64,000 nucleotides of DNA, taken from contig JAMPAI010000001.1 of the NCBI GenBank assembly GCA_023667315.1, positions 1-64,000 of the forward strand, read 5' to 3'. Shown piece after piece: positions 2,908 to 13,944 of the stretch. A program made the translations under genes and the position numbers. Within the stretch, counting starts at the first letter, position 1. The number at the start of each line of letters is the position of its first letter. The notes under the pieces are model-generated. The model saw only the letters and a list, made by a program, of their open reading frames with translations, was not told the DNA's origin and did not search any database. The stretch comes from Ruminococcus flavefaciens. GTDB lineage: Bacteria; Bacteroidota; Bacteroidia; Bacteroidales; P3.

Positions 2908-4665
2908 TTAATGCCCGCTCTCGCTGGCGGGTCGTGAAGCTTTTTTGTATTTATCCAAACCACAGACCTTGATTGTGACGCCCTCGCCATGGGCAACTTT
3001 AGCGGTTTCGTTCACATCGAATTGCGCCCGCTCCGTACTAAGGAAAGGAAACAAAAACGCCCGGAGATTACGTTCATAAAAATTCGTCGATTGTTGAGGT
3101 AGGATGAATGGTTTGGAAAAGGTTCCATCCAAAACATGCGATATGTATATTTCGGGAACACCGAAAGTTTCCCGATTGCTGGCAAAAACCATCCAACGAC
3201 CATTATGGGAAAAGGTATGGAATGTTTCGGAACCGTCGGTATTCAGTGCGTTGATGGGTTCGATACGGTATCCGCATTCCACGTCGGCGGGAATCAGACC
3301 TGAGGCGGTACTATCATTTAGACAGATCTTATACAAATCACCCATTACCTGAACGGAAAAAGTGGTTGTAGGCAAAGCACTGACGATTATATATTTTCCA
3401 TCCGGAGAAGCAAAAGGCATCGTTGCGCTTAAATTCATGTTTGAGAAGCGTGCCACCGTGCGTAGATTGGAAAATTCTCGTGTTTCGGGGTTAAAGTCTA
3501 TCTGCATAAGGTCGGCCCGTAACGCATTGTTCTGCTCGATTTGATCGTTGGGCCTTCTCAAATAAGAGGGTAAAAGTTTCATGTCTCTAAAGAAAAGCGA
3601 GTCATTGCTTGTCGTAGTGACCTGTTTTCGGGTGCGTTCCAAGGCAAGGCTTTCAGCAGAAGAACCTCGTACCGGTGTCCTGCAAAAGAATAAAGAGCGT
3701 CCGTCAACCGAAAAGCAGGGAAAGACATCATCGTATTCATCGGAGATGAGGTCTTCGCAAGAAAAAAGTTCTAAGGTTTTGGTGTCTAATATAACGATAT
3801 CACCCATTGTATCGACGGTTACAAGTCCTTTACGGCGTGGCGTGGAAAAATGCTTTGAATAGACTTGGTTTGTAGAGAAAGCGATAAAATCTCCGCCTGT
3901 ATGCCAAGAGGGATAAACGAGCCGGAGGCCGGGATAGGCATCCGGAATTTTCAATTTGGTTAGTTTGCCGTCTTTGGCAAGCAGCGTCCCCGTTAGAGTT
4001 CCGCGCAGGTGAACAAGAAAATTGTTGATGTTGTTCCCTTCGCAGGCGTGGCAATTCATGCAATTGCGATTCATCATGAAATTATCAAGGAGAGGTTTTG
4101 TCTCAAAATTTTCTAAGTTTTTTTGCTCTATAACGATATGATTGTAAGAGGCATCTTCGAAAATACTGGTACGGTAAATGATGTATGGGTCGATGGAATC
4201 ACCGGAGACAAACCAGACCCAAGGAGAAAACGATACCAAACTATCGGGTTTCTGTTTGGGATGAGCCGTAACGGAAACTTTGATGAATCCATCACGCGAT
4301 TTTCTCAGCAGTTCATGCCATTGTTCAATATGTTCGTTTGAGAAAGTTGTTGGCCAAGGAGCGAATCGTATAGAGTCAACCATATGCACGTTGTCGAAAA
4401 TTAAATCCGACATACTGTCTCCGAAAACGAAACCGGAAAAGCATACTTCGGCAATTTGCCAATTCGGATCTGCATGAGTGAACCCTAAGGGTGCGATATT
4501 GACGGGTAATACAATGCTGTCGGAATAGGCAGGAATGGAGGCCAATTGATGTTCGCTCACATGAACTTGTTTTTTGCGTTCCCGCTTGCCGGCCAGTCCA
4601 ACCAGCAGAATGCCGCAAAATAAGGCGAAAATCAGGAGAAAACGATAAAAAAGGCGGTTTGTCAT
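2908..4665 (-). CDS. CxxCH-containing TolB-like beta-propeller envelope protein, copy 2
   Basis: A 585-residue protein with an N-terminal membrane anchor or signal (residues 6-25, no lipobox Cys). Residues about 30-190 form a domain of unknown type, followed by a c-type heme motif C202-M-N-C-H206 and then PD40/TolB-like propeller blades (for example YPSWHTGGDFIAFS, DVFPCFSVDGRSLFF, MPFASPDGKYIIVS). It is a clear paralogue of the gene at 5835-7424: both share a VNIAPL/CNISPL segment, LLDNF or LFDNR just before CxxCH, and the same blade order. It is last in the minus-strand group, 13 nt after the gene at 4679. A covalently bound heme is inferred from the motif only. I do not recognise a named function. 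Confidence 0.8.
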   Translation of the reverse strand: MTNRLFYRFLLIFALFCGILLVGLAGKRERKKQVHVSEHQLASIPAYSDSIVLPVNIAPLGFTHADPNWQIAEVCFSGFVFGDSMSDLIFDNVHMVDSIRFAPWPTTFSNEHIEQWHELLRKSRDGFIKVSVTAHPKQKPDSLVSFSPWVWFVSGDSIDPYIIYRTSIFEDASYNHIVIEQKNLENFETKPLLDNFMMNRNCMNCHACEGNNINNFLVHLRGTLTGTLLAKDGKLTKLKIPDAYPGLRLVYPSWHTGGDFIAFSTNQVYSKHFSTPRRKGLVTVDTMGDIVILDTKTLELFSCEDLISDEYDDVFPCFSVDGRSLFFCRTPVRGSSAESLALERTRKQVTTTSNDSLFFRDMKLLPSYLRRPNDQIEQNNALRADLMQIDFNPETREFSNLRTVARFSNMNLSATMPFASPDGKYIIVSALPTTTFSVQVMGDLYKICLNDSTASGLIPADVECGYRIEPINALNTDGSETFHTFSHNGRWMVFASNRETFGVPEIYISHVLDGTFSKPFILPQQSTNFYERNLRAFLFPFLSTERAQFDVNETAKVAHGEGVTIKVCGLDKYKKASRPASESGH

Positions 4666-4678
4666 GGCTCCTTAGTTT

Positions 4679-5803
4679 TTAATAGGCGATGCCGTCCCAT
4701 ACAAAGTAGAACATATAGGTATCCCCGTGCTTTTTTTGCATCTCAGTTAAAGTCATTGCTCCATTTTGCAGAAGATAAAAATCGTTGAACCAACGCTCAA
4801 AACAGGCAATGACATTTGGTTCAATCCGTAGTTCTCCACTTCGCCATTGTAATAGATCTTCTCTGGAAGTGTTATTGGAGATCAAATAATTTTCTGAAAG
4901 CAAGAAAGCTTCCTGTACGTATGTTGGCAGGCGTTTTGCTCCTGATTCACGATAAGAATCTATGATAAAGGGCAATAAGTCCAATTGTTTGTAAAGCAAC
5001 TGCAACAAGGTAAAATAGTCTAGAAGACAAGCCGCTTGTTTGTCGTTTAGGTTCAAAGCTTCTTTTTCGGCGGCGTTGATTGGATAAAAAAGTTGAATCC
5101 AGGCATCGGTGGTATAAGGTTCGTGGGGCAGAAAATAAGGCAGGCTGTCCCAAGCCCAGAGAGCCTGTTTTCCTTCCTGCATTTTTTGATACCACCTTGT
5201 CTGTTCTTCTTCCGGCAAATAGGAGATGTACCGTCGGGCCAGACTAAGCCGACCGGTCTTTATGCATATTTGGGTCAATAGTCGGGCGGAAAACAAATCA
5301 AGACCGTTGCGGTCTGTGGCGCAGATCATGGTGGACAAGGCAGGGATATATAGTCCACATGCCATGGTTAGGCAACTATAAGGCTTTGCTATCTCTATGG
5401 CGGGAAAACCGAAAGGCAACATAAGCCCCATTTCAGGAATGTCGTGATAGGAAAGGAAATCTTCGTTGAGCTGGCCATTTGTCAGAAGCGCCCATTTTAG
5501 AATGGTGGCCATCTCCGCCCGTGCGGAGTCCGATTTTGAAGCTATCTGGAAATAATGCTCTGCAGAGGTACGGGCTGTCAAGGGGTCTTCATGCTCTAAC
5601 GCAAGCCGTGCGGATTGTATATGATTTGAGCGTGTTGACGTTGTATCCGCTGTGTCGATGGTGCATGTTTGGCGTAAAGATTTTGGATGTTGCCGTGTTG
5701 TCTGCTCTCTCTCTCTCTTTAGAAAATCAAAATCCTTTCCATGTAATTCGGAAACAGGTAAGTATATAAAAAGAAACAACACATACCAAAGGCACTTATT
5801 CAT
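4679..5803 (-). CDS. Secreted alpha-helical protein related to the DUF6057 C-terminal domain
   Basis: A 374-residue protein with a signal peptide (residues 1-22) and no further membrane segments. The body is helical and repeat-like. Its C-terminus contains PTYVQEAFLLSENY and later TLTEMQKKHGDTYMFYF, which align with PRHLQEALLASFDY and SFAELQRKWSHTYWFYD at the end of the protein encoded at 7426-9273. It therefore looks like a soluble version of that protein's extracytoplasmic part. It sits between two CxxCH propeller genes, completing the second copy of a two-gene module. A -7 box lies 7 nt before its ATG. Function unknown; the family name DUF6057 for the larger relative is from memory. Confidence 0.7.
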   Translation of the reverse strand: MNKCLWYVLFLFIYLPVSELHGKDFDFLKREREQTTRQHPKSLRQTCTIDTADTTSTRSNHIQSARLALEHEDPLTARTSAEHYFQIASKSDSARAEMATILKWALLTNGQLNEDFLSYHDIPEMGLMLPFGFPAIEIAKPYSCLTMACGLYIPALSTMICATDRNGLDLFSARLLTQICIKTGRLSLARRYISYLPEEEQTRWYQKMQEGKQALWAWDSLPYFLPHEPYTTDAWIQLFYPINAAEKEALNLNDKQAACLLDYFTLLQLLYKQLDLLPFIIDSYRESGAKRLPTYVQEAFLLSENYLISNNTSREDLLQWRSGELRIEPNVIACFERWFNDFYLLQNGAMTLTEMQKKHGDTYMFYFVWDGIAY

Positions 5804-5810
5804 TTCCTCG

Positions 5811-5818
5811 CAAAGTTA
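5811..5818 (-). promoter_or_regulatory. -7 box directly before the start codon at 5803
   Basis: On the minus strand TAACTTTG, a perfect TAnnTTTG match followed by CG, ends 7 nt before the ATG. Transcription would begin at or next to the start codon. The intervening CGAGGAA could instead act as a ribosome binding site for readthrough from the upstream gene. Confidence 0.5.
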
Positions 5819-5834
5819 AATTGTTGATGCCTCT

Positions 5835-7424
5835 TTAATTTATGGGGTTTGATGGCAATGGAGAAACAAAAATACGTTCACCATCTATCAGAACCGAATC
5901 CACTTCCTTTATCGGCATGGTCGAGATCTCCTTGGCCTTGGCCGCGCTGATGGCCGCCGGGGTCTTGGCGAATTCCGGCACATTATACGATTTCAAGAAG
6001 GTAAGGTAGAAAGCCGGGTCGCGTTGCGGCAGCAGGAAAGGCTTGCTGCTCACCCCGTTCGAATCCAAATAGGTAAAGTAGGGGCGGGAATAGAGGTTGT
6101 CTTCGCGCTTGCTGCTGAACATCAGCCATTTGCCGTTGCTGCTGAACGTATGGTAACTTTCGGTGAACGGGCTGTTTACGTGTTCCATCTTCTTCATCCA
6201 AAAGTTCTTGGAGGCTGGAATCCAATTGCTGTCTTTGGGCAGGGAGCCGGTCATGTCCACCAAGTACAGGTCGCTTTCGGGGTGCCGGATGGGAAACGTT
6301 CCGTGGTCGCTCAAGCAGAACACCAAAAACCGTCCGTCGGGCGTAAGGCGAGGAAAAGATGCCGTGCCTTTGGTGATGTTGAAGTCCACGACCGTATCGA
6401 TCCGGCCGAAAGTGTTCGTTTTTTCATCGAAAGCGATACGCACCAGGTTGTATTTTATCTTCTTGGAATAATCCACATCGTTTTCCAGGCTGTCGCGGGG
6501 AGGATTGGGGCTTTGGCAGAAGTAGAGGTACTTGCCGTCCCAACTCCAATAGGGGAATGTTTCCTCCACGGTGTCGGAAGATATGCGGCTGTCGGTAAAG
6601 ATCATATTGCGGTCGATGTCATAAACGATCATGTCGCCTATGGAATCGAACACTTCCGTGCGGCGAACAATATCCTTGCTGTGCACGAATGGGTAGGCGC
6701 TCGATGTGCCGAATGCAATCAGCCTTTTATTGGGATGCCAGGAAGGATAGACACCACCTTGCGGAAAGCGGTCCGATTTCATATCGATCCGTAAGACGGT
6801 ATCGTTCCTTATGATAAAAGTGCCCACACGGTTAAACCGCACGTGATAAACCAGATGGGAGCCGTCCGTTTGTGCAAAAGTATGACAGTTTACACAACCG
6901 TATTCCTGTAAACGGTTGTCGAAAAGAAGTCGTTGCGAAGCATCTTGTAAATTGTATTCTATGGTTTGAAGCAGGTTCGACATCTGATAACTCGGTTCGA
7001 TCAGACGGCAGGAAAAATAAAGGTCGATGCTGTCCTGAACATCCCAGTAAAAGCGAACGCTTGCATTATGTTGCAAGCTATTTCCCATCAACTGCAAATC
7101 CACCCAAAGACGACGGCCTGAGTTTTTTTGCAGACATTCATGCCATATTTTGGGGTTGAATTTAACGAAGTTCTTACCTTTTATTCTCAAGGTATCGCTT
7201 TCGGATCCCCAAACCTTTAATGAATAGCCGGAATAAGGAGGTAATACATAAAAATTGAGAGGGGAAATATTGCAGGGAATCGATACATTGGTATAGTCGG
7301 GATAAATAAAGGTATCTTTTGGGGAAAGCCTTTGCATTTGTGCCAAGTTGACTTGTTTGTGGCAAGCGGTAAACAATATCCCCGAAACCACCCATAAAAT
7401 GATATTGAATAATTTAGTTTTCAT
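5835..7424 (-). CDS. CxxCH-containing TolB-like beta-propeller lipoprotein, copy 1
   Basis: A 529-residue lipoprotein with lipobox LFTAC and lipidated Cys21. After a domain of unknown type (about 25-165) comes C177-V-N-C-H181, a c-type heme attachment motif, and then a propeller with blades such as YPSWHPNKRLIAFG, TFPYWSWDGKYLYF, FPRLTPDGRFLVF and TFSSNGKWLMFSS. It starts 1 nt from the end of the membrane protein gene at 7426, so the two are translationally linked. Base composition changes along the gene: the N-terminal half is AT-rich like its upstream neighbour, the C-terminal half GC-rich. No cytochrome maturation genes lie nearby. Heme binding and any redox role are inferred from the motif. 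Confidence 0.8.
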   Translation of the reverse strand: MKTKLFNIILWVVSGILFTACHKQVNLAQMQRLSPKDTFIYPDYTNVSIPCNISPLNFYVLPPYSGYSLKVWGSESDTLRIKGKNFVKFNPKIWHECLQKNSGRRLWVDLQLMGNSLQHNASVRFYWDVQDSIDLYFSCRLIEPSYQMSNLLQTIEYNLQDASQRLLFDNRLQEYGCVNCHTFAQTDGSHLVYHVRFNRVGTFIIRNDTVLRIDMKSDRFPQGGVYPSWHPNKRLIAFGTSSAYPFVHSKDIVRRTEVFDSIGDMIVYDIDRNMIFTDSRISSDTVEETFPYWSWDGKYLYFCQSPNPPRDSLENDVDYSKKIKYNLVRIAFDEKTNTFGRIDTVVDFNITKGTASFPRLTPDGRFLVFCLSDHGTFPIRHPESDLYLVDMTGSLPKDSNWIPASKNFWMKKMEHVNSPFTESYHTFSSNGKWLMFSSKREDNLYSRPYFTYLDSNGVSSKPFLLPQRDPAFYLTFLKSYNVPEFAKTPAAISAAKAKEISTMPIKEVDSVLIDGERIFVSPLPSNPIN

Positions 7425-7425
7425 G

Positions 7426-9273
7426 CTAATTTACAGATTGATGGTTGGTGGCTTCTGTATCAATGGTTTTTAAATAGCAGTCGTAAAACCAATACGTGTG
7501 ACTCCATTTTCGTTGCAGTTCGGCAAATGAAATGGTTCCGTTGGTGTAAGCCTGATTGTCGGCAATAAAATGCCAATAGTTGTTCCATACATCTTGACTT
7601 AAACCCTCTATACGTTGAGGATAAAGGTAACGGGAGGGTTTGTAATCGAAAGAAGCTAAAAGTGCCTCCTGAAGATGGCGTGGGGCGGTAAAAGTCCCAT
7701 CTTTGGGATAAAGATTTCTAATAGAGGGTATTTCGTTTCCAACAATTACATGAAGTTTGTTTAACAGACAAATACTCATCAGATATTCGTAAAGATAAGC
7801 GTTTTGCGGTTGCATTACAAATTCCTTTGAGGCATTGTTGTCTGGAAAATAAGATAATACAGTGTAATTCTTAGAGGGCAACATTTGTTTACCTCTTTTT
7901 ATGACAGAAAGTTCGTTGCGAAGGTCGGCATTTTTGTAGATGGCGGCTTGCGAACGATAGAAAAGAGATTTCTCCAAGAAATGAGTTAGTTTGAAAGCCG
8001 GCAGGGTATCGTCCACCATCAGACTGGTAACAATGGTGGCATTCAATACATTGGCGCTGATGCAATGGCAAGTGATCAGATCGTAATTCAGATGCAGGCT
8101 AGCACTGAAACAACCGACAAAGGTATAATAAGTAGGAAGTGAAAAACATTCGGGCCTGTTATTCATTGGAGTGGGAAATAACATCGGGAATGCCGGTTGT
8201 GGATAGGTAAACAAGCGATCGGTGGCTTTGCGGGTGGCAAGGAGAGCCAATTTGGTTTGAGTGTAAAACAAAAAGCGAGAGTTACCGGTAAAAAAAACGG
8301 ATTTCGACTCGTTTTCCCATTGAGAATCCAAAATGTGCAACGCTTCATCCCAGCAGTAAGCGCGAGAAAGCCTGTCTACTTTTTGGAAATTTTGCATAGG
8401 ATAGGAGGAGGCTAAGGTGAACCATATTCCACCTAAGATAAGAGGCAGACCGATAATCCAGTCAAACCTACCTTTTCCGGGATGATAAAAAGCCCATCCT
8501 AAAGAGAAGAAGGCGAGAACACCTATACACGCAAAAACAACCCATACGGGACGAAAATATCCGTAAGGAATAGCGTCGTACGGGGAAAAGGCTACGCCTC
8601 CAAATGTAAATAGATATTTAATATCCAAAAAGTTATATGGAGAAACCATCCATCTTTCCAAAAAATACCAAAGCAATGCGCTTCCGAATGTCGGTAGCCA
8701 AAGAAGGAAATTAAATTTCTTCTCTTCAGACTTTGTTCGAAAATAATCTATGCTTGCAAAGAACGGCAGCACCCAGGCCATGTATTCGCGCACCAGATAG
8801 GCCAATGCCGCCAACACGATAACCTGGCAGCCGTAGCGCAAGACGCGGTTTTTCCAATGCATCCACAATTGCGCGCCCAATACGGTAAGAAACACCACCA
8901 TCAACACTAGCAGGCCGAAATTAACCGTGGTGGGCAGCAACAGCGCCACCGTTACCAGGCCCGGCAGCAGGCGATGGTTGCCGTTCACCGTAAGGCAGCG
9001 GTTAAACAGCCAGGCGGTGAGCGTAAAGAGCAGCGCATACACGACGGCGCCCAACCAGGGGTAGTAGCTGAACTGAATCAGGAAGGTGTGCAGGTAGATC
9101 AGCGTTCCGAACGGCTCGTGGTCAAAGAAGTGCCAGTATTCGGAGGTAAAGCGGAAGAGCTGGTTCTTTTCCCAGAATTCCAGCACGTCGGGCATGGCGA
9201 AGGCGAAAAACGCCCACAGGCCGACCGCCAGCAGGGGGTAGATCCAAACCGCAGGTTTCTTTAGTGCTTGCAT
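7426..9273 (-). CDS. DUF6057-like polytopic membrane protein
   Basis: A 615-residue protein. Residues 1 to about 300 hold roughly ten hydrophobic segments; the remainder is a hydrophilic helical domain ending in the SFAELQRKWSHTYWFYD region shared with the gene at 4679. I place the start at the ATG at 9273 (MQALKKPAVW), not the upstream in-frame ATG at 9315, because 9315 lies inside the transcription terminator of the lysine operon and a -7 box falls between the two. Base composition breaks sharply inside the gene: by hand count 28% GC at 8701-8760 and 60% GC at 8761-8820. It heads the group that continues with the CxxCH propeller genes. Function unknown. Confidence 0.75.
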   Translation of the reverse strand: MQALKKPAVWIYPLLAVGLWAFFAFAMPDVLEFWEKNQLFRFTSEYWHFFDHEPFGTLIYLHTFLIQFSYYPWLGAVVYALLFTLTAWLFNRCLTVNGNHRLLPGLVTVALLLPTTVNFGLLVLMVVFLTVLGAQLWMHWKNRVLRYGCQVIVLAALAYLVREYMAWVLPFFASIDYFRTKSEEKKFNFLLWLPTFGSALLWYFLERWMVSPYNFLDIKYLFTFGGVAFSPYDAIPYGYFRPVWVVFACIGVLAFFSLGWAFYHPGKGRFDWIIGLPLILGGIWFTLASSYPMQNFQKVDRLSRAYCWDEALHILDSQWENESKSVFFTGNSRFLFYTQTKLALLATRKATDRLFTYPQPAFPMLFPTPMNNRPECFSLPTYYTFVGCFSASLHLNYDLITCHCISANVLNATIVTSLMVDDTLPAFKLTHFLEKSLFYRSQAAIYKNADLRNELSVIKRGKQMLPSKNYTVLSYFPDNNASKEFVMQPQNAYLYEYLMSICLLNKLHVIVGNEIPSIRNLYPKDGTFTAPRHLQEALLASFDYKPSRYLYPQRIEGLSQDVWNNYWHFIADNQAYTNGTISFAELQRKWSHTYWFYDCYLKTIDTEATNHQSVN

Positions 9274-9281
9274 AACAGAAC

Positions 9282-9289
9282 CAAAGGTA
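9282..9289 (-). promoter_or_regulatory. -7 box directly before the start codon at 9273
   Basis: TACCTTTG on the minus strand, 8 nt before the ATG and just past the T-tract of the lysine-operon terminator. It implies a separate, possibly leaderless transcript for the DUF6057-like gene. Confidence 0.5.
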
Positions 9290-9291
9290 CG

Positions 9292-9332
9292 AAAAAGCCC
9301 CGACAGAAAGACCATTCTTTCCGCCGGGGCTT
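9292..9332 (-). terminator. Intrinsic terminator after kamA
   Basis: On the minus strand AAGCCCCG (9332-9325) pairs with CGGGGCTT (9302-9295), an inner GAAAG/CTTTC stem extends the hairpin, and a T-run follows. It starts 24 nt past the kamA stop and separates the lysine operon from the next gene. Confidence 0.85.
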
Positions 9333-9355
9333 GGCAAAGGGGGGAAAACCGCAGG

Positions 9356-10714
9356 CTATTTCGCCTTCCTGGCGGTTTTCTTAGCCGTGGGTTTCGCAGC
9401 CTTCTCCGCCTTGGGCTGAACTTTTTTGGCCGCCGGCTTCGCGGCTGCTTTCTTAAGTTCGGCCTGACGTTTCTTGGAACGTTCGTGGCGCTCCAGCACA
9501 GCCGGTTCCAGCGAGATGCTCTTGCCGGGCAGGCTCAGCAATTGGCTTACGCCCTCGGTCTTGAGGTTCTTGCGGTCCAGTTCCTGCGAGGGACGGTTGT
9601 CGTAGTCCACCGGTTCGGTGTAGGTGGTGATGACCCCTTCGAAGTTGCGAAGTATGGCGCGGCCGCCGCCCAACGAGATCAGGTATTGCGGCATCACGGG
9701 AATCTTGCCGCCGCCACCGGGTGCGTCCACCACGAAGGTGGGCACGGCGAAGCCCGACACGTGGCCGCGCAGACCCTCGATAATCTCGATGCCCTTGCTT
9801 ACCGGCGTGCGGAAATGTTCCAGGCCCATCGAAAGGTCGCATTGGTAGATGTAGTAGGGGCGGACGCGGATCTTGACCAGTTCGCACACCAACTTCTTCA
9901 TCGTGCTCACCGCATCGTTCACACCGCGCAGCAACACGCTCTGGTTGCCCAAGGGGATACCGGCGTTGGCCAATCGGGCGCAGGCTTCCGAACTTTCCGC
10001 CGTGATTTCGTTGGGGTGGTTGAAGTGGGTGTTGAGCCAAACGGGATGATACTTGGAAAGCATCTTGACCAGTTCGGGCGTGATGCGCTGGGGGCAGACC
10101 ACCGGAACGCGGCTTCCGATGCGGATGATTTCCACATGCTTGATGGCGCGCAGACGCTGGATGATGTATTCCAACTTGGCGTCCGACACCAGAAGGGCAT
10201 CGCCGCCGGAGAGCAGCACATCGCGCACCTGCGGGGTGCGTTCAATGTATGCCAAGGCTTTTTCGATGCGTTCCTTGGGGCTTTCGCAGTCGTTCTGGCC
10301 GGCAAAACGGCGACGGGTGCAGTGGCGGCAGTACATCGAGCACTGGTCGGTAATCAGGAAAAGCACCCGGTCCGGATAACGGTGGGTGAGGCCCGGTGCG
10401 GGCGAATCCTCGTCTTCGTGCAATGGGTCAAGTAAATCGGCGGCCGACACATGGGTTTCGGCACCGGTGGGAATGGCCTGCTTGCGCACGGGATCGTTGG
10501 GATCCTTGGGGTCGATAAGGCTCAGGTAATACGGGGTGATGGCCATACGGAGCGTCTTGAGCGTTTTCTTGACGCCTGCTTCCTCGTCTTTGGTCAGCTT
10601 TACGTATTTCTTGAGGTCCTCGAGGGTCTCGATGCGGTTCTTTACCTGCCAGTGCCAATCGTTCCACTGCTCCTCGGTAACCCCCGGGAACATCTTTTTC
10701 TGTTTACTGTTCAT
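9356..10714 (-). CDS. kamA: L-lysine 2,3-aminomutase
   Basis: A radical-SAM, PLP-dependent enzyme that converts L-lysine to L-beta-lysine, the first step of lysine fermentation. The Fe-S cluster ligands are C125, C129 and C132 in CSMYCRHC. K337 in PGGGGKIPVMP is the PLP lysine, and D293 and D330 are at the positions known to hold the substrate amino group in the Clostridium subterminale enzyme; these three residue numbers coincide exactly with that reference as I remember it. The protein has 452 residues against about 416 for that enzyme. The excess is a C-terminal tail after about residue 405, made almost entirely of Lys and Ala with some Pro, Arg and Glu. It is the last gene of the operon. 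Confidence 0.95.
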   Translation of the reverse strand: MNSKQKKMFPGVTEEQWNDWHWQVKNRIETLEDLKKYVKLTKDEEAGVKKTLKTLRMAITPYYLSLIDPKDPNDPVRKQAIPTGAETHVSAADLLDPLHEDEDSPAPGLTHRYPDRVLFLITDQCSMYCRHCTRRRFAGQNDCESPKERIEKALAYIERTPQVRDVLLSGGDALLVSDAKLEYIIQRLRAIKHVEIIRIGSRVPVVCPQRITPELVKMLSKYHPVWLNTHFNHPNEITAESSEACARLANAGIPLGNQSVLLRGVNDAVSTMKKLVCELVKIRVRPYYIYQCDLSMGLEHFRTPVSKGIEIIEGLRGHVSGFAVPTFVVDAPGGGGKIPVMPQYLISLGGGRAILRNFEGVITTYTEPVDYDNRPSQELDRKNLKTEGVSQLLSLPGKSISLEPAVLERHERSKKRQAELKKAAAKPAAKKVQPKAEKAAKPTAKKTARKAK

Positions 10715-10767
10715 GGCTGTTCGTTTTAAAACAGGGACTGCCTTTATCAGACAGTCCCGACATTTTC

Positions 10768-10943
10768 AAAAGTGTTCAAAAGGCTTGCAGATGCGCCCTT
10801 TTCAACTATTCTTGTTAAAAGTGTTCAAAAGGGTTGCAGATGCGAGGCTCTGCCTGTCAAAAGACGAGGGAGCTTACTTCCGTAAGTGACCGAATCTTTT
10901 GCCAGGCAGGAACGAAGCAGATGCGCCCTTTTCAACACTTTTA
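10768..10943. repeat. Repeat-rich intergenic region with nested hairpin between kdd and kamA
   Basis: The 226-bp gap holds related repeats. AAAAGTGTTCAAAAGG occurs at 10768-10783 and again at 10817-10832, and in nearly inverted form near 10928-10943. GCAGATGCGCCCTTTTCAAC occurs at 10787-10806 and 10917-10936. Between them CTGCCTGTCAAAAGA (10850-10864) pairs with TCTTTTGCCAGGCAG (10895-10909) with one mismatch, enclosing a smaller CTTAC/GTAAG stem at 10873-10886. The rest of the operon is tightly spaced, so this may be a processing or attenuation site, or a small inserted repeat element. Confidence 0.75.
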
Positions 10944-11990
10944 GGCATACAACTCCGTGAAGATATCCCGCAACTCCTTGCACTCGCGCAACTCCTGCAA
11001 GGTGATTTCGGCATGTCCCTTGGTGTAGCCGTTGCCCACGATCATGGTAACGTCCTTGCCCACACCTTCGGCGCCCAGGGCAGCCTTGGTAAAGGAGGTG
11101 GCCATGGAGAAGAAGTAAACCACGCCGTCGTCTTTGGTGCAGAGGATGCTGGTCATTTCGGTGTTCTCGATGTTCACGTTGTTGATGCACACATCGCAGA
11201 GCTTGCCGTTGGTCAGCTTTTCGATTTCTTCGTAGATGGCCACGGGCTGGGTGGCGTCGGCGGCGAACACGTAGTCGCAGAAACCGAGCTTCTTCAGGCG
11301 TTCGGTGCTCTTGGGGCTGTGGCAGAGGCCGATTACCTTACCGGTAACGCCCGCACGCTTCTTGGCTTCGTAGCAGCAGAGCATGCCGCTCTTGCCGCCG
11401 GCACCGATAATGAGGACGGTATCGCCGGGTTTCACCAATTTGGCCGTCTGTGCCGGAGCACCGGCAACGTCCAAGGCCGAAAGGGCCAGGTTTTCGGGAA
11501 GGTCGGAAGGAATCTTGGCGTAGATGCCGCTTTCAAACAGGATGGCCTTGCCGTCGATGTCCACCTGGTCGATGTCGGGGCGGATATCCTTGATCTTGTC
11601 GATACGCAAGGGGGTCAAGGACAAAGAAACGAGGGTGGCGATCTTGTCGCCTTCCTTCAAATCGATTTTGCCTTTCAAGGCGTCGCCGATCTTTTCTACC
11701 GTACCCAGCAACATACCGCCCGAACCGGTAACGGGATTGCGGTGTTTGCCTTGTTTTTCCACGATGCCCATCATGATTTCGGCAATCTTCTTCTTGTCGC
11801 CGCCGGCCTGTTCCTCAATCTGGGTAAAGCTGGCCGAGTCGATATTCAGCGTCTGTACGTCGATAAGGATTTCGTTGTCGTACAGAACGTCCATGTTGTT
11901 GTCGATCTTATCGGCGGGTTGGGGAAGAACGCCTTTGGGGGAAATGACACGGTGGGTACCGTACTTGCTGCCTTTAGGTTGTGCACTCAT
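10941..11990 (-). CDS. kdd: L-erythro-3,5-diaminohexanoate dehydrogenase
   Basis: Third enzyme of lysine fermentation: NAD(P)-dependent oxidative deamination of 3,5-diaminohexanoate to 5-amino-3-oxohexanoate. The 349-residue protein has a medium-chain-dehydrogenase-like layout with a dinucleotide-binding motif VLIIGAGGKSGML in the middle. The conserved start MSAQPKGSKYGTHRVI is typical of the family. It sits between kce and kamA, as in other lysine fermenters. Its substrate would have to come from KamDE (lysine 5,6-aminomutase family), which is not encoded in this window. The stop codon lies at the edge of the repeat-rich gap before kamA. Confidence 0.93.
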   Translation of the reverse strand: MSAQPKGSKYGTHRVISPKGVLPQPADKIDNNMDVLYDNEILIDVQTLNIDSASFTQIEEQAGGDKKKIAEIMMGIVEKQGKHRNPVTGSGGMLLGTVEKIGDALKGKIDLKEGDKIATLVSLSLTPLRIDKIKDIRPDIDQVDIDGKAILFESGIYAKIPSDLPENLALSALDVAGAPAQTAKLVKPGDTVLIIGAGGKSGMLCCYEAKKRAGVTGKVIGLCHSPKSTERLKKLGFCDYVFAADATQPVAIYEEIEKLTNGKLCDVCINNVNIENTEMTSILCTKDDGVVYFFSMATSFTKAALGAEGVGKDVTMIVGNGYTKGHAEITLQELRECKELRDIFTELYA

Positions 11991-12053
11991 TGTAATCAGT
12001 TGTTTTAAAAGTTCTTGTATTGTTTATTTTGAACACGTTTGTGCTCGGTTGTC

Positions 12054-12890
12054 TTATTTCTTGCGGGCGGGAAGCGAAAGGATCCGGCGCGCTTCTTCGG
12101 GATTGGCGATTTCGCGGCCCAGTTCCCTGGCGATGCGCACCACCTTGGCCACCAATTCGCCGTTGCTCTTGGCCAATACGCCGCGTTCAAGGTAGAGGTT
12201 GTCCTCGAAGCCCACGCGCACGTTACCGCCCATGGCAATGGCCGGAGCCGCCAAAGTAAAGGCGTGGCGGCCGATGCCGGTGGCCGTCCAGGTAGAGCCT
12301 GCCGGAATGGCGTTCACCAGCCAGCAGAGGTTGGGCACCGTGGCGGGCGTACAGCCGGGAACTCCCAACACGAAGTTGAACTGCATCGGGTCGCCCGGCA
12401 CCTCGCCCTTGCGGGCCATGGTGAGGATGGTGTCCAGATGCCCCATTTCGAAGCATTCGTATTCGGGCTTGATGCCGCGTTCCAGCATACGCTTGCCGAA
12501 GGCACGCATCGTCGGCATCGTGTTGTCGAAAATTTCGTCGCCGAAGTTGCAGGTGCCGCAGTCGAGCGTGGCCATTTCGGGCTTGGGATCGGTGTCGGTG
12601 CTCTGCAGGCGTTCTTCGGGGGTCATACCCACCGCACCGCCCGTGCTGGGAATCAAGATCACGTCGGGACAAACCTTCAGGATCGCTTCTTCGCACTCTT
12701 GAAAACGTGCGCGGCTTTGGGTCGGCTTTCCGTTGTCTTCCCTCACGTGCAGGTGCACGATGACTGCGCCGGCATCCACCGCGCTCTTGGCCTCACGCAC
12801 GATTTCATCCACCGTGTAGGGAACCGCCGGGTTCTGTTCCTTGGTTACTTCGGCCCCGCAGATGGCGGCCGTGATAATCAGTTTTTCCAT
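12054..12890 (-). CDS. kce: 3-keto-5-aminohexanoate cleavage enzyme
   Basis: A 278-residue member of the BKACE family (DUF849). It condenses and cleaves 5-amino-3-oxohexanoate with acetyl-CoA to give L-3-aminobutyryl-CoA and acetoacetate. Zn-binding His46 and His48 stand in HLHVR, with the catalytic-site Glu14 in CGAEVT and a C-terminal acidic residue E229 in VGFEDN, matching the known Kce active site. It starts 9 nt after kal and is followed by kdd after 63 nt. The acetoacetate it forms is the expected acceptor for the CoA-transferase whose A subunit begins this operon. Confidence 0.95.
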   Translation of the reverse strand: MEKLIITAAICGAEVTKEQNPAVPYTVDEIVREAKSAVDAGAVIVHLHVREDNGKPTQSRARFQECEEAILKVCPDVILIPSTGGAVGMTPEERLQSTDTDPKPEMATLDCGTCNFGDEIFDNTMPTMRAFGKRMLERGIKPEYECFEMGHLDTILTMARKGEVPGDPMQFNFVLGVPGCTPATVPNLCWLVNAIPAGSTWTATGIGRHAFTLAAPAIAMGGNVRVGFEDNLYLERGVLAKSNGELVAKVVRIARELGREIANPEEARRILSLPARKK

Positions 12891-12899
12891 GACTTAGAA

Positions 12900-13295
12900 T
12901 TATTTGCGCTTGCACGCCTTGGGGGTTACACAAGTGCCGACGGCCTTGGCCACGATAACCGGCTCTTCGAGCACATCGGCCGCCGAAGCCGAAATGTCGG
13001 GACGGGTGGCGATCACCTTGCGCGCCACAAATTCCATCTTGCGGCTGGTGTTGCCCACTTTCACGATCGTCCCTTCGGCCTCAATGTAGTCGCCGGCATA
13101 GACGGGAGCCAGGAATTCAATGCTTTCGTAACCGGCAAAGAGACCCTCGTCGCCGTCAATCTGAATCAACAGTTCGGTGGCCACATCGCCGAAAAGGTGC
13201 ACCATATGGGCGCCGTCCACCAGGTTTCCACCGTAATGTGCGTCTTTGGCGCTCATGCGCAGGCGCAGGACCGATTTATAGACTTTTTCTTCCAT
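12900..13295 (-). CDS. kal: 3-aminobutyryl-CoA ammonia-lyase
   Basis: A 131-residue hotdog-fold protein that removes ammonia from L-3-aminobutyryl-CoA to give crotonyl-CoA. The family pattern is visible in [17 protein letters not shown] and [16 protein letters not shown] chose the ATG at 13295 (MEEKVYKS), 4 nt past the atoD stop, over one at 13322 that would overlap atoD by 23 nt. Position between a CoA-transferase subunit and kce supports the assignment; the hotdog fold alone would not distinguish it from a thioesterase. Confidence 0.9.
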
Positions 13296-13299
13296 GACT

Positions 13300-13944
13300 T
13301 TATTTGATAATGTATTTAACAAGAATAGAGGGCGTTATCACCGCTTCGGGTTCAATCTGGCCGGGTTCCACCATTTCATTGATTTCGGCAATCACCGTGT
13401 CGGCGGCCATGGCCATCATGGGGTTGAAGTTCTGCGAGGTGCCGCGATACACGAGGTTGCCCTCGCTGTCGCCCTTGCTGGCCCCGATCAGGGCGAAGTT
13501 TGCACGCAGGGGCTTTTCGAGCAGGTAATCCTTGCCGTCCACGTTGATCACCTGTTTGCCTTCGGCCACCACGGTGCCCAGGCCGGTGGCGGTGAGCACG
13601 CCGCCCAATCCCGCGCCGCCGCAGCGGATGCGTTCGGCCAGGCTGCCCTGCGGACAGAATTCCACCTTCAGTTCGCCCGCGTTCATCTGGTCCATCGTGT
13701 TCTGATTGGTGCCGATGTGCGATACGTAGAGTTTGGAAATCTGCTTGTTGGTGATGAGCTTACCCACGCCGCGGTCGATATAACCGGTGTCGTTGCTTAT
13801 AAGCGTAAGGTTTTTCTTGCCCGATGCGGCCAGGGCGTCGATGATGCGCAAGGGTGTTCCCACCGTAAGGAAGCCGCCCACCATAATGGTGTCGCCGTCC
13901 TTAATCATGTCAACGGCCTGTTGAACGCTGATGAACTTGTTCAT
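13300..13944 (-). CDS. atoD: Acetoacetate:butyrate/acetate CoA-transferase, subunit A
   Basis: A 214-residue class I CoA-transferase alpha subunit, with the glycine-rich [15 protein letters not shown] segment near the N-terminus and [19 protein letters not shown] in the middle. With its partner subunit B (AtoA) it would move CoA between butyryl-CoA and the acetoacetate made by Kce. No subunit B is present here: the next gene is kal, and pyrE lies divergently upstream. The catalytic Glu of these enzymes is carried by subunit B, so AtoD alone should be inactive. It is the first gene of the operon, behind a consensus -7 box at 13982-13989. Confidence 0.9.

Follow-up and report, generated by a model that had tools for sequence, protein, structure and literature searches.

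The window analyzed here is a stretch of 64,000 nucleotides (positions 1 to 64,000 of contig JAMPAI010000001.1, assembly GCA_023667315.1) from Ruminococcus flavefaciens (GTDB lineage Bacteroidales; P3), and it contains a minus-strand run of four genes that encode, in order, a DUF6057 membrane protein, a β-propeller protein (propeller 1), a small partner (partner 2) and a second propeller protein (propeller 2). The genes are closely packed, with gaps of 1 nt between the DUF6057 gene and propeller 1, 31 nt between propeller 1 and partner 2, and 13 nt between partner 2 and propeller 2. A preliminary description of this DNA had taken the run for a duplicated two-gene module, and the four open reading frames (ORFs) were found on the minus strand at the coordinates that it gave, although position 9273 is an alternative to 9315 as the start of the DUF6057 ORF; ORF starts and signal peptides were assigned by eye or by simple rules. 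The two propellers are paralogous (BLASTP E 1e-45, 24% identity), and each carries a single CxxCH motif at the same place, C177/C180/H181 of propeller 1 aligning with C202/C205/H206 of propeller 2.

The larger partner, described earlier as DUF6057-like, scores 167.8 bits against PF19529 (curated cut-off 29.8). It shares its C-terminal domain with partner 2 (BLASTP E 3e-6; hhalign probability 97, E 1e-10, residues 88-369), which has no Pfam match at E ≤ 1, thus falling below the PF19529 cut-off, and which retains that domain alone. The figure of about ten membrane segments first proposed for the larger partner did not hold up, as hydropathy gives six. The proposal that one copy had lost its membrane part did, and the loss is derived, because the nearest relative of partner 2 (L071 5361-7040) still has six predicted segments. 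Elsewhere on this contig there are two additional modules, one at about 113-117 kb and the other at about 142-145 kb.

Table 1. Features of the propeller/DUF6057 gene run in the window
Feature	Position	Strand	Basis
DUF6057 membrane protein: about six predicted membrane segments followed by a soluble C-terminal domain	7426..9315	-	PF19529 E 6e-49; hydropathy
Propeller 1: lipoprotein-like signal (Cys21), N-terminal part, CVNCH, PD40 blades	5835..7424	-	
CVNCH motif, residues 177-181 of propeller 1	6882..6896	-	
Partner 2: signal peptide (by eye) and DUF6057 C-terminal domain only	4679..5803	-	
Propeller 2: without canonical lipobox (by eye)	2908..4665	-	PD40; paralogy with propeller 1
CMNCH motif, residues 202-206 of propeller 2	4048..4062	-	

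Pairing and co-inheritance of propeller and DUF6057 genes

At least 582 related stretches were found among species genomes, the best 80 of which were taken as named loci. A same-strand DUF6057 gene adjoins 93 of the 99 propeller ORFs in these 80 loci, with a median gap of 3 nt. The unpaired propellers are two that begin at a contig end (L100, L127), two shortened ORFs (L109 and L116, the DUF6057 gene of L116 being split), one whose nearest DUF6057 ORFs lie on the other strand (L129), and one with a SusD-type ORF upstream in place of DUF6057 (L121). In an order-wide sample of 148 genomes (assemblies of varying completeness), a strong propeller match (E < 1e-60) and DUF6057 above its cut-off are found in the same 15 genomes; 24 of 39 genomes, those with weak propeller matches only (best E > 1e-26, including the distant-type G065 and G147), were not counted. 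From a further set of 57 genomes, four were likewise left out (G065, G147, G338 and G398; E > 1e-60). Distances between propellers correlate with distances between their partners (79 pairs, including four that come from the window's own assembly; r = 0.83), and none of 2000 shuffles of partners within 12 multi-module loci or genomes reaches this value (mean 0.75, maximum 0.82). These data show that the modules are inherited as units.

PF19529 is matched by all 74 aligned partners (alignment A5, composed of 73 of 95 DUF6057 hits and the window protein), and simple hydropathy predicts five to eight membrane segments followed by a soluble domain in 71 of the 74. The signal peptide of partner 2, recognized by eye, suggests that this soluble domain lies outside the cytoplasm. 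A search for a solved relative of DUF6057 yielded none, the best match being a photosystem subunit at E 0.01. A reading of DUF6057 as glycosyltransferase-like (GT-C), prompted by its topology, was considered and dropped. We know of no described function for the family, and in the literature searched, outside which most subscription papers and bioRxiv preprints fell, DUF6057 and PF19529 were unmentioned and the combination of propeller, DUF6057 and the chorismatase-like gene discussed below was not recognized from titles and the beginnings of abstracts.

The CxNCH propeller family

Both window propellers contain PD40 repeats (E 5e-12 and 4e-15). An alignment of 92 propellers (A4, with the two window proteins and 90 of the 99 propeller ORFs, eight having been omitted for length and one for its position at a contig end) shows CxNCH in 92/92, as the sole CxxCH of each protein; the patterns used to fetch relatives lay outside this motif. 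The preliminary description had put its proposal at risk on two points, co-occurrence of the two genes in other genomes and conservation of CxxCH among homologues of the propeller, and it withstood both, the first through the regular partnership reported above; the module pattern is confirmed and is wider than was proposed. A Cys occupies the lipobox column in 87 of the 92 aligned propellers and a separate lipobox-like rule is satisfied by 79 of the 92, suggesting that members of the family are typically exported and of lipoprotein kind.

On a propeller of this kind, seven distant relatives likewise have one C(G/A)NCH each, extending the invariance of CxNCH to 99/99 near and distant members (92 and 7). 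The only other His kept in both groups is His425 (propeller 1 numbering; 89/92 near, 7/7 distant), while H194 and R196 are conserved in the near group only. Behind the propeller, four of the seven distant relatives have tetratricopeptide repeats (TPRs) above the Pfam cut-off, and no DUF6057 ORF was present in the 8-18 kb fetched around each of the seven. The fused helical repeats of the distant relatives and the separate partner of the modules are compatible with one working arrangement. The long propeller proteins at L159, L161, L162 and L164, each with one C(G/A)NCH and with TPRs at the C-terminus, represent a wider family for which we know of no described role.

Among known propellers, one likeness is to the TolB/PD40 type, 91 of the 92 aligned members matching a TolB model at E ≤ 0.1 (best E 3e-14). 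Membership in TolB itself was rejected, as the window propellers score 17 and 19.9 bits against a TIGR02800 cut-off of 343.15; TolB, to our knowledge, carries no CxxCH. Hydrazine synthase alpha and beta-gamma also combine a propeller with a c-type heme motif. However, none of the four window proteins hits PF18582 at E ≤ 1, and no hydrazine synthase appears by name among the 44 solved sequences matching at E ≤ 10; membership in the hydrazine synthase alpha family was rejected on these grounds.

Heme-attachment and chorismatase-like genes in module genomes

CcsA (PF01578) is present in 52 of 53 module genomes and, among the 133 genomes of the first sample that lack the module, in 108 (Fisher p = 0.002); of these 108, 106 lie above the family cut-off and two (G059, G145) have weak matches only. 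Over both samples, 54 of 55 module genomes carry CcsA (15/15 in the first and 39/40 in the further one). This co-occurrence moderately strengthens the case for a heme c on the propeller. In the assembly of the window itself, CcsBA is found at L170 (8543-10696), where the cluster (8543-13812, contig C11) places it next to a protein with two CxxCH motifs at a match to DHOR, the di-heme oxidoreductase family, and next to an imelysin (PF09375, E 3e-38). L170 is another apparent c-type cytochrome locus, and with CcsBA and the two-CxxCH protein the window's organism seems equipped to make cytochromes of the c type.

A third gene, encoding a chorismatase-like protein (E ≤ 1e-20), accompanies the module more selectively. 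In the same 148 genomes it occurs in 15/15 module genomes versus 8/133 others (Fisher p = 4e-15; two of these eight have imperfect matches, in two pieces in G053 and partial in G018). A second set, distinct from the first, has it in 38 of 40 module genomes versus 4 of 40 module-free genomes, the latter chosen by consecutive handle number, giving 53/55 versus 12/173 over both sets. The association also holds inside families with module and module-free genomes alike, including f3, f8, f15, f26, f34, f58, f83, f98 and f102, so that shared descent alone is not the explanation; exceptions occur in f38 and f39, where G136 has the chorismatase-like gene without the module and G158 the reverse. DHOR was considered as a hidden cause of the link and rejected: it lies above its cut-off in 17 of the 148 genomes (6/15 module and 11/133 others), and the nine module genomes that lack it all carry the chorismatase-like gene.

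The association extends to gene position. A chorismatase-like ORF is present in 8 of the 80 loci, directly downstream of the propeller in six of them, and in two distant-type loci as well. At least 16 module genomes have it no more than 10 kb from a propeller or DUF6057 gene (the neighbor in G057 being of the distant type), and at least 16 genomes, of which 15 have the module, show it no more than 10 kb from CcsA; these counts are lower bounds, since the places compared (64 for the chorismatase-like gene, 23 for the module and 20 for CcsA) were picked by eye from longer lists.

The representative protein contains PF21168 (above cut-off, one member tested) and PF01042, and its likeness is to the FkbO/Hyg5/XanB2 chorismatases: the profile of the associated gene aligns to FkbO (4bps) and to 5ag3 (E 3e-38), titled as a pteridine-dependent dioxygenase, which we take to be Hyg5. 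A Cys and a Glu seven residues apart, candidates for the type-II Cys and the catalytic Glu, are invariant in 10 of 10 aligned sequences. This spacing equals that of Cys-318 and Glu-325 in Nat-Hyg5, the latter corresponding to the essential Glu-334 of Hyg5, according to PMC7170507. The associated gene scores 41-93 bits against an NCBI cut-off of 325 in 4/4 cases tested, including that of the window organism, and chorismatase activity is therefore not assured.

Chorismatase-like genes also accompany other putative heme c clusters. One has the order imelysin, DHOR, CxxCH lipoprotein and CcsBA (annotated in L179). Another, at L182 (3935-14296) and L185 (5790-18217), places a pair resembling hydrazine synthase alpha and beta-gamma beside the chorismatase-like gene, together with CcsBA, Dak subunits and a DeoC-type aldolase; the alpha protein of L182, the locus in which domains were searched, matches PF18582 at E 2e-37. 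Beta-gamma hydrazine synthase homologues occur in Bacteroidota according to PMC12758564, in whose main text the string "chorismat" is absent. At L181 (4061-7736), in a cluster of the imelysin/DHOR type, a regulator-like gene and a small gene stand between two chorismatase-like paralogues.

Two neighbors of the run in the window are recorded for completeness. On the minus strand, a lysine fermentation cluster (9356-13944) comprises lysine 2,3-aminomutase, diaminohexanoate dehydrogenase, KCE and KAL, all above NCBI cut-offs, and then a CoA-transferase subunit. An exported ORF at 1637-2830 has no NCBIfam match and resembles a C1-type cysteine peptidase.

A putative heme c propeller complex and its alternatives

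The reading that best fits these observations, to which we would give an even chance, is that a c-type heme propeller and the soluble domain of DUF6057 together carry out periplasmic redox chemistry that needs a chorismate-derived hydroxybenzoate. The propeller would be exported, usually lipid-anchored, and would bear one covalent heme c on CxNCH, attached by the CcsBA (System II) machinery. Its working partner in the periplasm would be the soluble C-terminal domain of the cognate DUF6057 protein, which would anchor it at the inner membrane; the periplasmic side is suggested by the signal peptide of partner 2 and by the TPR-fused relatives. His425 would be the likeliest second heme ligand or active-site residue because it is the only other His kept in the distant relatives. 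The complex is predicted to perform an envelope redox step dependent on hydroxybenzoate made by the cytosolic chorismatase-like enzyme. In the second copy of the window, loss of the membrane part from the partner and of the lipobox from the propeller would have left a soluble version. The preliminary description had inferred an envelope redox or sensing complex, an interpretation that is partly supported: the genetics of the module and of its companion genes are shown here, whereas heme, complex, membrane side, reaction and substrate are inferences. A more specific form of the proposal, which we hold tentatively and think rather improbable as it stands, is an undescribed Bacteroidales envelope redox system in which hydroxybenzoate is the electron carrier or substrate for a heme c propeller docked on DUF6057, the related heme c systems (hydrazine-synthase-like and imelysin/di-heme) sharing the enzyme.

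Several observations weigh against this proposal. Joint duplication of linked genes would yield the cognate co-variation without contact between the proteins. DUF6057 members have no conserved membrane His, and TPR hits in their soluble domain (no more than 2 of 74 members for each TPR model, E > 0.01) are too weak to establish a likeness to the TPR tails of the distant relatives. His425 stood in one of the search patterns, and its conservation among near relatives is therefore partly a product of how these were selected. Two module genomes, G158 and G352, have no chorismatase-like gene; in G352 the sole propeller match is in two pieces, but G158 has no such excuse.

The remaining difficulties concern the heme itself and favor a reading, unlikely in our judgment, in which CxNCH binds no heme and serves as a metal site or thiol switch in a scaffold propeller, with CcsA co-occurring through shared lifestyles. 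No cytochrome c fold is recognizable by sequence around the motif: in 20 scanned members, no cytochrome domain lies above cut-off among the matches listed (25 of 35 families), and one of the 20 hits Cytochrom_C at E 0.1. CcsA is common anyway, as its count in module-free genomes shows, and the first sample alone gives p = 0.08 (15/15 versus 108/133). A single module genome, G215 (99% complete, 240 contigs), lacks CcsA and ResB alike, ResB being present in three of its congeners. Yet the His of the motif, which a disulfide would not need, is invariant with both Cys in all 99 near and distant members, and both the near-constant presence of CcsA in module genomes and its proximity to the chorismatase-like gene count against the heme-free reading.

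A different role, which we would also place among the less probable ones, is that the heme c propeller is a structural or sensory part of SusC/SusD glycan uptake loci, in which the heme reports redox state or stabilizes the fold and DUF6057 acts as a relay or an anchor. Of the 80 loci, 26 have a SusC-type or SusD-type ORF no further than about 6 kb away (cluster representatives match TonB-receptor plug and SusD models), three loci (L074, L105, L111) have a same-strand SusC-SusD-lipoprotein-DUF4369-DUF6057-propeller order, and representative neighbors include glycoside hydrolases of GH3, GH97, GH43 and GH2. However, Bacteroidales genomes are rich in SusC/SusD, the 26/80, which stands beside no measured background rate, is a lead, 54 of the 80 mapped loci show no SusC/SusD, and a glycan role leaves the chorismatase-like link unexplained. 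That link is taken up by a very unlikely alternative in which the module would serve to export or assemble a lipid or pigment of the aryl-polyene type made from the chorismatase product, with the propeller as an accessory outer-membrane lipoprotein. The skewed distribution of the chorismatase-like gene (53/55 versus 12/173) would fit it, as would the XanB2-type chorismatases, which feed the xanthomonadin and ubiquinone pathways and so tie chorismate to both (PMC3949708); a weak argument against it is that no polyene gene was noticed by eye beside the chorismatase-like gene at L175 of the window's assembly, the one mapped locus searched for them.

Modules of this kind are common in gut and environmental Bacteroidales, often with more than one copy, and neither of the two partners has a known function. 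If the propellers do carry heme c, they would be among the more widespread cytochromes of these anaerobes. Beyond the preliminary description, the analysis adds a third associated gene for a chorismatase-like enzyme, and this tie points to a small molecule and a pathway that can be tested for two protein families of unknown function together.

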